Shown piece by piece: positions 46,905 through 51,095 of a stretch of DNA of 64,000 bases. Made by a program: the position numbers and the translations under genes. This stretch comes from Rhodospirillaceae bacterium (GTDB lineage: Bacteria > Pseudomonadota > Alphaproteobacteria > Reyranellales > Reyranellaceae). Under the pieces are notes generated by a model that saw only the letters and a list, made by a program, of their open reading frames with translations, was not told where the DNA came from and ran no database searches. Numbering within the stretch: position 1 is the stretch's first letter; each line of letters begins with the position of its first letter. Location of the stretch: the NCBI GenBank assembly GCA_009772935.1, contig WOUR01000026.1:1-64000 (forward strand), given 5' to 3'.

Positions 46905-48980
46905 ATGGCCGAGTTCAAGACGGAGACGATCACCGGCGGCAGACCAGGCAGCGGCGCGCATCGCGTGGTGGCGCTGTGCGGGCCGTACCTGTCGGGCAAG
47001 ACCAGCCTGCTCGAAAGCATTCTCTACGCGACAGGAGCCATCGGCCGGCGCGGCTCGACGCGCGCAGGCACTTCCATCGGCGACGCGGCCGCCGAAGCGC
47101 GCAAGCGCGGCATGGGCACCGAGATCAACGTCGCCTCGGTCGACTATCTCGGCGACCAGTGGACCTTCCTCGACGTGCCGGGCTCGATCGAATTCCAGCA
47201 CGATGCCTTCGCCGCGCTCGCGGTATGCGACACCGCCGTCCTCGTCTGCGACCCCTCGCCCGAGCGGGTGATGGCGCTGACACCGCTCCTGAAACAGATC
47301 GAGGACCGGCACATCCCGCACATCATCTTCGTCAACAAGATCGACTCCGCCGAGGCCCGCGTACGCGATCTGCTGTCGGTGCTGCAGTCGGTGTCGCGCC
47401 GCAAGCTGGTGCTGCGGCAGGTGCCGATCCGCCGTGCCGCCGCCGACGGCAGCGACGAGACGGTGGGCTATGTCGATCTCGTGAGCGAGCGCGCCTATCG
47501 CTACCGGAGCAGCGGCGCGTCCGACCTGATCGAGATGCCCGCAGAAGTACTGCCGCGCGAGGCCGAGGCGCGCCGCGAAATGCTGGAGACGCTCTCCGAA
47601 TTCGACGATGCGCTCCTGGAACAGCTGATCGAGGACATCGCGCCCGAGAAATCGCTGATCTACCGCGATCTGCATGACGAGTTCTGCACCGACCAGATCG
47701 CGCCGGTGCTGCTCGGCGCCGGTGACCGGGAGAACGGCGTGCGGCGCCTCCTGAAGGCGCTGCGTCACGATACGCCCTTCTTCGAGCAGACCGCGCGGCG
47801 CCGGGCCCTGCCTTCGGGCGACGCTCCGACGGCCGAGTGTTTCAAGGTCCTGCATCAGAGCCACGCCGGAAAGCTCTCGCTCTGCCGCATCTGGTCCGGG
47901 ACGCTCGCCGAAGGCCACTCGGTCGGTGGACAGAGGATCGGCTCGATCCTGCGCCCGTTCGGACAGAGGCTCGACAAGATCGCCGGAGCACGTGCCGGCG
48001 AGATCGTGGCCCTTGCCAAGGTCGAGGGCCTTGCGTCCGGGCAGATGCTCGGTCCCGCAGGGATCGTCGCCTCGGCGGACTTCCCGACGCCCGAGACGCC
48101 GGTTTTCAGCCTGGCGCTGTCCGCGCGCAACCGGAACGACGAGGTGAAACTGTCGGGCGCGCTCCAGAAGATCGTCGAGGAGGATCCGTCGCTCTCCTTC
48201 GAGCAGCGCGGCGAGACGCATGAGCTTCTGCTCAGGGGCCAGGGCGAGATGCACCTCAAGGTGGCTGTCGACAAGCTCGCCGGGCGCTACAACGTCGCCA
48301 TCGAGACGTCGACGCCGCGCGTCGCCTATCGCGAGACCATCCAGGCGGGCACGCAGCAGCATGCCCGCTACAAGCGCCAGACCGGTGGCCACGGTCAGTT
48401 CGCCGACATCAAGATCGAGATCAAGCCGTTGCCGCGCGGAGCGGGTTTCCGCTTCGTGGACCGGATCGTGGGCGGCGTGGTGCCCCGCAACTTCATTCCG
48501 GCCGTCGAGGAAGGATTGCGCGAATACCTGAAGGAAGGGCCGCTCGGGCAGCCCGTGGTCGACCTCGAAGCGACGCTGATCGACGGCCAGTACCATGCCG
48601 TCGACAGTTCCGAGATGTCGTTCAAGATGGCCGCGCGCATCGCCATGAGCGAGGCCATGCCCAAGTGCAAACCGGTCCTGCTCGAACCCATTCTTCGGGT
48701 CACGGTCGCCGGACCGGCCGAGGCGACGCCGCGGCTGCAGCGGCTGATCACCGGACGACGCGGGCAGCTTCTGGGCTACGATGCCCGGCCGGACTGGCCG
48801 GGGTGGGACGAGGTCTCGGCTCTGATTCCGGAAGCGGAGATCGCCGACATGATCGTGGAGATCCGGTCCGTCACGCAGGGCATCGGCACCTTCCGCGCGG
48901 CGTTCGACCACCTGCAGGAGTTGGCGGGCCGCACGGCCGAACGCATCGTCGAGGAGACGAAGAAGCGTCAGGCCGCCTGA
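46905..48980 (+). CDS. EF-G-like GTPase paralogue with altered catalytic motif
   Basis: A 691-residue protein with the five-domain length of elongation factor G. P-loop GPYLSGKTSLLES and G4 motif NKID (FVNKIDSAEARV) are present, but the G3 motif is DVPGS instead of DTPGH, so the catalytic histidine is missing. Domain III-IV features remain (LSFEQRGETHELLLRGQGEMHLKV; GGHGQFADIKIEIKPLP; FVDRIVGGVVPRNFIPAVEEG; domain V MSEAMPKCKPVLLEPILRV). It belongs with the EF-G-like group (FusA2/EF-G2 style) rather than the housekeeping FusA. Ribosome binding without normal GTP turnover is plausible, but the role is unknown. GGAGG stands 8 bases before the ATG. Confidence 0.9.
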   Translation: MAEFKTETITGGRPGSGAHRVVALCGPYLSGKTSLLESILYATGAIGRRGSTRAGTSIGDAAAEARKRGMGTEINVASVDYLGDQWTFLDVPGSIEFQHDAFAALAVCDTAVLVCDPSPERVMALTPLLKQIEDRHIPHIIFVNKIDSAEARVRDLLSVLQSVSRRKLVLRQVPIRRAAADGSDETVGYVDLVSERAYRYRSSGASDLIEMPAEVLPREAEARREMLETLSEFDDALLEQLIEDIAPEKSLIYRDLHDEFCTDQIAPVLLGAGDRENGVRRLLKALRHDTPFFEQTARRRALPSGDAPTAECFKVLHQSHAGKLSLCRIWSGTLAEGHSVGGQRIGSILRPFGQRLDKIAGARAGEIVALAKVEGLASGQMLGPAGIVASADFPTPETPVFSLALSARNRNDEVKLSGALQKIVEEDPSLSFEQRGETHELLLRGQGEMHLKVAVDKLAGRYNVAIETSTPRVAYRETIQAGTQQHARYKRQTGGHGQFADIKIEIKPLPRGAGFRFVDRIVGGVVPRNFIPAVEEGLREYLKEGPLGQPVVDLEATLIDGQYHAVDSSEMSFKMAARIAMSEAMPKCKPVLLEPILRVTVAGPAEATPRLQRLITGRRGQLLGYDARPDWPGWDEVSALIPEAEIADMIVEIRSVTQGIGTFRAAFDHLQELAGRTAERIVEETKKRQAA

Positions 48981-49091: not shown

Positions 49092-49526
49092 ATGTTCAAC
49101 AGACGGTCTTTGATGGTGGGTGGCCTGGTGATGGCTGCCGCATCGTCACTGGCCCGCGTCGGCAATGCCCAGTCTGGGCGCCCGACGCTGGTGTTCGTCG
49201 GCCACGAACTTTGAGGCGGCTGCAAGATCTGGCGTGCCCAGTCCGAGCCTGATTTCCTCAAGTCGGCCGCTTTCAAGAAGATGGATTATCTGGTGGTTCA
49301 TCCGGCCAACGCAGACCTGCTGATGGTCGACGAAAGCTGGCCCGCGCCGGCGAGACCCATCCGGGCTGCCTTCCTGGCCAGCGAGGAGGGCAAGAAGAGC
49401 CCCAACGCCACGCCTCGGTTCATCCTGTTCCAGGATGGCAAGATCGTCCTCACGGTCACCGGCAACGGCGGCTGGAAGGACAAGATGTGGCCGACGATCC
49501 AGGACGTGACGGCCTCCAAGGCCTAG
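49092..49526 (+). CDS. Candidate selenoprotein: exported thioredoxin-fold protein with UGA-encoded residue (UxxC)
   Basis: The ATG at 49092 (MFNRRSLMVGGLVMAAASSL) has GGGAG 8 bases upstream and matches the start of the paralogue at 49592. The frame meets one TGA at 49212-49214 (codon 41) and continues without frameshift to the TAG at 49524-49526, 144 residues if TGA is read. Around it the protein reads PTLVFVGHEL-U-GGCKIWRAQ, so TGA is the first position of a CxxC-like redox motif at the end of a hydrophobic strand, and ATPRFILFQDGKIV carries the cis-proline (Pro108) of the thioredoxin fold. The N-terminus is a twin-arginine-like signal ending near GNAQ. A SECIS-like hairpin follows the TGA directly. 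The alternative is a nonsense-mutated pseudogene; sel genes are not in this window. Confidence 0.75.
49218..49249 (+). promoter_or_regulatory. Putative bacterial SECIS element
   Basis: Counting the U of UGA as 1, the fold pairs 7-10 GGCU with 35-38 AGCC, then G15-A16 with U31-C32, leaves U17 bulged, pairs C18-G21 (CUGG) with C27-G30 (CCAG), and leaves the loop C22 G23 U24 G25 C26. A bulged U at 17 with G23 and U24 in the loop is, from memory, what SelB recognises in the E. coli fdhF message. Distance from UGA to loop (18 bases) and a G within the first two loop bases also fit the general bacterial SECIS rules. The element lies wholly inside coding sequence. Confidence 0.72.
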
Positions 49527-49591: not shown

Positions 49592-50029
49592 ATGTTCAAG
49601 AGACGTAGCGTGATGGCGGGTGGCCTGTCGTTGGCCGCCTCGCCGGTCCTGGCGCGCGCGGCCGGCGCGCAGGGCACGAAGAAGCCCATGCTGATCTTCG
49701 CCGGGGACGAGACGTCGGAGGCCTGCAAGGTCTGGCGTACGCAATGGGAGCCGATCTTCAAGCAGGCCCCGGTATTCCAGAAGGTCGACTACCGCGTCGT
49801 GTTCCCGAAGACGCCGGCGCTCCTGCTGAAGCCTGCGAGCTGGCCCACGGACCTGCGCTGGGTGCTCGACGCCTTCCTGATGAGCGAGGTCGGAATCGAA
49901 CAGGGGGCCGAGACGCCGCGGTTCTTCCTCGTTCAGGGAGGACAGATCACCTTCACCGCGGTCGGCAACAATGCCTGGCGCGACGTCATGTGGCCGACCC
50001 TGCTGGCCGTGACCAATTCGCAGCCGTAG
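49592..50029 (+). CDS. Exported thioredoxin-fold protein, Ser-containing paralogue of the candidate selenoprotein
   Basis: Start at the ATG at 49592 (MFKRRSVMAGGLSLAASPVL), 145 residues; the 35 residues before it in the track are leader. It has a twin-arginine-like signal ending near GAQG, a first strand PMLIFAGDET, then SEAC where the upstream gene has U-GGC, followed by KVWRTQWEPIFKQAPVFQKV, and the cis-Pro strand ETPRFFLVQGGQI. The first redox position is thus serine (Ser42) and only Cys45 remains, so it cannot form a CxxC disulfide. It is clearly a tandem duplicate. Likely periplasmic; function unknown. Confidence 0.85.
   Translation: MFKRRSVMAGGLSLAASPVLARAAGAQGTKKPMLIFAGDETSEACKVWRTQWEPIFKQAPVFQKVDYRVVFPKTPALLLKPASWPTDLRWVLDAFLMSEVGIEQGAETPRFFLVQGGQITFTAVGNNAWRDVMWPTLLAVTNSQP

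Positions 50030-50132: not shown

Positions 50133-51095
<963 letters not shown>

Follow-up and report, generated by a model that had tools for sequence, protein, structure and literature searches.

A conserved in-frame UGA, a SECIS-like hairpin and a predicted thioredoxin fold point to an apparently uncatalogued family of probably exported selenoproteins encoded beside msrP in Reyranellaceae

Introduction

The catalogue of prokaryotic selenoproteins published in 2026 comprises 119 families (PMC13188914). The closest described systems are the thioredoxin and thiol:disulfide interchange selenoproteins with selenocysteine (Sec) in a UxxC motif (PF00085, PF13098; PMC13188914), along with the HUIPC-motif family NF047660, SaoT (NF040730) and the DsbG-like family NF041057. 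The limits given for a bSECIS are an upper stem of 4-16 bp, a loop of 3-9 nt whose first two positions include G, a distance of 16-37 nt from the UGA and an MFE of at most -7.5 kcal/mol (PMC13188914). In the numbering used below, the conserved SECIS sites are U17, G23 and U24, of which U17 and G23 bind SelB, and nucleotides 15-19 pair with 28-31 (PMC8659212).

Here, we describe a gene from Reyranellaceae that resembles these systems in its motif and its downstream RNA element. It lies in a window of 64,000 nucleotides (contig WOUR01000026.1, assembly GCA_009772935.1), whose source genome is 6.0 Mb in 124 contigs and 98% complete.

Results

The original prediction was that a single frame, running from ATG 49092 to TAG 49524 and broken only by TGA 49212, encodes a selenoprotein. 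Translation of 49092-49526 clearly showed one internal stop, TGA 49212-49214 at residue 41, in the sequence MFNRRSLMVGGLVMAAASSLARVGNAQSGRPTLVFVGHEL-U-GGCKIWRAQ..., and this TGA does occupy the first position of a CxxC-type motif with Cys44 kept, so that the motif reads UGGC. By eye, a GGAG 8 bases 5′ of the ATG is compatible with a ribosome-binding site. As had been claimed, starting at the next in-frame Met would be costly, since ATG 49281 would remove the signal, U41 and C44; annotation as two fragments had also been foreseen, and mechanical ORF calling (table 11) indeed splits the gene into two short ORFs. The features of the locus are as follows.

46905-48980, + strand: elongation factor G (EF-G) paralogue, upstream neighbour, ending in TGA (NF009379, 963 bits; synteny)
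49092-49526, + strand: putative selenoprotein gene (product of 144 aa, Sec encoded by codon 41; ends with TAG 49524-49526)
49092-49172, + strand: predicted N-terminal export signal (Arg4-Arg5, Tat-like NRRSLMVGG, cleavage near NAQ-SGR)
49212-49214, + strand: in-frame UGA, putative Sec41, position 1 of UGGC (TGA in 60 genus orthologues and 8 from other family genera)
49221-49223, + strand: Cys44, putative resolving residue of UxxC, invariant in alignments A1 to A5
49226-49243, + strand: putative bSECIS core hairpin of 6 bp, nt 15-32 counted from the U of UGA
49413-49415, + strand: Pro108 of the invariant PRF, predicted cis-Pro loop (alignment and model)
49592-50029, + strand: tandem paralogue; Ser stands in place of Sec (SEAC) and the SECIS is broken
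50133-51095, + strand: msrP, periplasmic methionine sulfoxide reductase catalytic subunit (NF003767 equivalog, 416 bits, cut-off 207; synteny)

An orthologue was found in 60 of the 65 genomes of the genus, with 59-94% identity, and codon 41 is TGA in every one of them, never TAA or TAG. The TGA form is also present in 8 of 10 genomes from other Reyranellaceae genera, giving a total of 68 species in four genera. A search for homologues with either UGA or Cys at codon 41 had been proposed, and both kinds were found in the intact family, the derived Ser paralogue being the exception. One further genome of the genus, G003, has an orthologue in the same syntenic place (L096/L228) with TGC at codon 41 (DQCGFCKMW), and the distant CxxC homologues, mostly CxPC, bear Cys in the TGA column. 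Cys stands at the aligned position in 17 homologue rows, the L096/L228 orthologue included, and additionally in L229, which together with L228 makes two syntenic Cys-bearing copies. The L229 copy (L229:5001-5360 and L232; G071:C22; motif CGQC) has its start out of frame and contains a TAG, so that it may be a Cys copy in decay or a sequence error; a copy with TGA (L218) lies at another place in this genome.

The tandem paralogue was said to be intact and to align without a gap around the site, which holds true; its residue in the TGA column is, however, Ser (TCG), making the motif SxxC and not CxxC. In two relatives (L031, L042), the second Cys of this paralogue is lost too. The paralogue may be either a redox protein drifting from its active site or one reused for a new role. 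A second TGA paralogue, with the motif UAAC and the same SECIS core, is encoded in the genome of the window (L084:1247-1705; G000:C62:10743-11201) and is a candidate for a second new selenoprotein. More distant homologues with TGA in UGPC or UDPC motifs (L085-L093, L242) are scattered among Reyranella species, with at most two per genome. In the tree, the Ser paralogues form one clade nested in the TGA clade, while the two syntenic Cys copies are placed separately; on this topology, the simplest reading would be a duplication with a Sec-to-Ser change plus two independent Sec/Cys exchanges.

A class-wide search of 385 genomes gave no strong matches outside Reyranellaceae, and plasmids and viral contigs yielded no homologue, hence no sign of a mobile origin. 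One TGA copy (L224:2693-3151) lies on a contig labelled as a Bradyrhizobium MAG and lacks the usual neighbours, which may reflect either a mis-binned contig or horizontal transfer.

The part of the gene beyond the TGA evolves as protein, as indicated by a median dN/dS of 0.27 downstream vs. 0.33 upstream of the TGA in 53 ungapped orthologues; W47, W83, P84, PRF and G124 are invariant 3′ of the UGA. Codons +4 to +9 (AAG ATC TGG CGT GCC CAG) show zero synonymous change in 59 species. The Arg codon among them is CGT in 59/59, and CGT accounts for 10% of the Arg codons in five neighbouring genes. At the same codons, the Ser paralogue has a similar, conserved peptide with more synonymous change.

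A search of the genome for selA, selB, selC and selD, proposed as a check of the prediction, revealed all four. The tRNA-Sec was found at C61:166754 (71.5 bits) and ARAGORN agrees (SeC, anticodon TCA); selA (565 bits) and selB (388 bits) are on the same contig, and selD (288 bits) is on C4. Within the genus, selA is over the cut-off in 59 of the 65 genomes. Among the six below it, selB or tRNA-Sec was detected in G021, G025, G045 and G036, and neither selA nor tRNA-Sec was over the cut-off in G011 and G026, gene-bearing MAGs that are 89% and 60% complete. A formate dehydrogenase alpha (FdhA) gene with an in-frame TGA at U-HGP (L117; G000:C61:156842) adjoins selA, selB and tRNA-Sec.

The hairpin downstream of the UGA comprises the pairs G15-C32, A16-U31, C18-G30, U19-A29, G20-C28 and G21-C27, with U17 (49228) bulged and G23-U24 (49234-49235) within the loop CGUGC (49233-49237). 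U17, G23 and U24 coincide with the published determinants (PMC8659212), and we count this in favour of Sec decoding. With an upper stem of 4 bp, a loop of 5 nt, a spacing of 18 nt and -10.6 kcal/mol for 40 nt, the element falls inside the bSECIS limits. In an alignment of 20 distinct sequences, which also covers the UGPC group, 94% of cells pair and both partners vary in three of the pairs; covariation scores 0.278 vs. 0.135 for shuffled alignments (0/500 as high), and slid structures reach at most 0.076. Moreover, 68 of 70 TGA genes have the four-pair core with GU vs. none of 58 others (40 Ser, 17 Cys, 1 Arg). The isolated hairpin of the window (-4.3 kcal/mol, z 0.3) is no more stable than its shuffles, and the support for the hairpin comes from conservation and covariation, not from folding energy alone. 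U17 is not kept throughout the distant UGPC group, and several UGPC/UDPC homologues have a longer SECIS stem with GUA or GUC in the loop. A lower stem, GGCU/AGCC (nt 7-10 with 35-38), was excluded from the element because it is often broken by GAA codons. Rfam contained no matching RNA, traJ-II at E 0.53 being a chance hit.

The product was modelled with AlphaFold2 from 37 sequences of the window and related loci, U being modelled as Cys. The pLDDT is about 97 in the domain and 86 overall, with the signal disordered (a low-confidence helix). The model places strand 32-36 before U41, which starts helix 42-50, and TPRF ahead of strand 109-114; in other words, the UxxC lies at a helix N-terminus after a beta strand, as in the thioredoxin fold, and the cis-proline strand claimed downstream finds its counterpart in the predicted TPRF loop. 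In Foldseek, the closest PDB structures were thioredoxins (E 1.8e-5, probability 1.00, TM about 0.5), and a sequence search of the PDB gave no significant relative. R4 and R5 are invariant in alignments A2 to A5 and nearly so in A1, and the TAT_signal match is weak and under the cut-off. The invariant Arg pair suggests export, so that the product is probably exported through a twin-arginine signal and, judging by sequence and model, is most likely an exported selenol oxidoreductase.

Discussion

Taken together, the conserved UGA, the Sec machinery, the covarying SECIS, the thioredoxin fold and the purifying selection downstream support the original reading as a selenoprotein. On sequence grounds, UGA-41 is almost certainly read as selenocysteine, and we hold with high confidence that an exported thioredoxin-fold selenoprotein, with UGA-41 decoded via SelB and the SECIS, is the best explanation overall. 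In the mechanism that we propose, SelB with Sec-tRNA(Sec) would decode UGA-41 under the direction of the SECIS hairpin, whose start lies 11 nt beyond this codon. The product would be exported via its twin-arginine signal and fold with a Sec41-Gly-Gly-Cys44 active site, where Sec41 may attack an oxidised substrate and Cys44 resolve the resulting selenenyl-sulfide.

What the protein does is less certain. MsrP reduces methionine sulfoxide in periplasmic proteins. Nearly every locus of the family has the genes in the order EF-G, selenoprotein, (Ser paralogue), msrP, and at one of them (L211) 5 nt separate the selenoprotein stop from the msrP ATG. This conserved order, the function of MsrP and the invariant Arg pair make it plausible that both proteins take part in oxidative repair in the periplasm, and we tentatively suggest, at less than even chances, that the selenoprotein serves the same repair process as MsrP. 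A fuller version is more doubtful still, namely a selenium-dependent periplasmic protein-repair module formed at one conserved locus by the exported selenoredoxin, the Ser paralogue and MsrP, where, for instance, the selenoredoxin side would reduce oxidised Cys and MsrP methionine sulfoxide. We give an even chance to the alternative that the protein is unrelated to MsrP and acts as a general exported thiol oxidoreductase (a DsbG/TlpA-like reductase, or one for metal or peroxide handling) in a stable neighbourhood, which differs from our best explanation solely in this speculative last step. The position between EF-G and msrP argues against it, while EF-G and the acyl-CoA dehydrogenase and TctC genes of the same neighbourhood have no clear link. 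Moreover, an MsrQ-like protein is encoded elsewhere (C47; 123 bits vs. a cut-off of 130), so that MsrP probably has its usual donor; this weakens the idea of the selenoprotein as a substitute for a missing MsrQ.

The reading as Sec leaves little room for others. Insertion of Trp or Cys at the UGA, by suppression or a code change, would look alike in a protein alignment, where the homologue column is Cys and any residue-giving mechanism would do. However, UGA serves as a normal stop in the adjacent EF-G gene and, in some relatives, at the end of the selenoprotein gene itself, the genome has the full Sec machinery, and the downstream RNA element, needed for Sec only, vanishes where the codon is Cys or Ser. 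We therefore reject reassignment of the genetic code and consider such readthrough very improbable. Just as improbable is a selenium-dependent regulatory stop, in which a 40-aa signal peptide or the termination itself would regulate, e.g., downstream genes, the readthrough product being minor. The conserved neighbour order and the short distance to msrP in one species would suit it, yet the residues invariant past the UGA reveal strong constraint at the protein level, and the Cys replacement in G003 retains the full-length protein. Least probable of all is a recent nonsense mutation with a decaying 3′ part, for which the split under table 11 and the one disrupted Cys copy might speak; it is refuted by the conservation of the same TGA, never TAA or TAG, in 68 species of four genera with a dN/dS of 0.27 downstream, and other stops do not accumulate in the relatives.

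Sec decoding remains our reading, and it reveals a selenoprotein family whose genes would be split or dropped by annotation. The family is present in most of the Reyranellaceae species examined and is kept by dozens of Reyranella-group bacteria. One and the same gene occurs with UGA, with Cys and with Ser, a clean natural experiment in which the SECIS comes and goes with the UGA. The locus also suggests that selenium is used outside the cytoplasm, beside the repair of methionine sulfoxide.

As to known families, Pfam and NCBIfam gave none over the cut-off for the selenoprotein, and no NCBIfam model matched it at E up to 1. For 34 members of the family, no thioredoxin family of Pfam matched at E up to 0.01 and no NCBIfam model did so over the cut-off. 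In a comparison by names and motifs, there is no evident entry for it among the catalogued families (PMC13188914), none of those with a Pfam or NCBIfam model matches, and the openly accessible literature on Reyranella and relatives with selenocysteine held no report of it. We have filed it as a new, apparently uncatalogued family of bacterial thioredoxin-fold UxxC selenoproteins, the catalogue comparison being by names and motifs.

The FdhA of the same genome (C61:156842) would depend on the same SelB, and its SECIS has the bulged U17 and G23-U24 in exactly the same places, but it is an unrelated molybdenum enzyme with no thioredoxin fold. With the thioredoxins of the PDB (3qfa chain C and others), the new protein has the fold in common, whereas identity is only 15-20%, the TM-score is about 0.5 on the query, the motif differs and segments are added. 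NF047660, NF040730 and NF041057 are likewise small thioredoxin-like UxxC selenoproteins, yet they match none of the 34 relatives (E up to 0.1). The closest resemblance is to the UxxC selenoproteins of PF00085 and PF13098 (PMC13188914), which share the thioredoxin fold, the N-terminal Sec of UxxC, the resolving Cys and the SECIS 3′ of the UGA. Unlike them, the Reyranellaceae protein has an RR export signal and conserved WP and PRF motifs, and its strong matches are, in these data, confined to Reyranellaceae.
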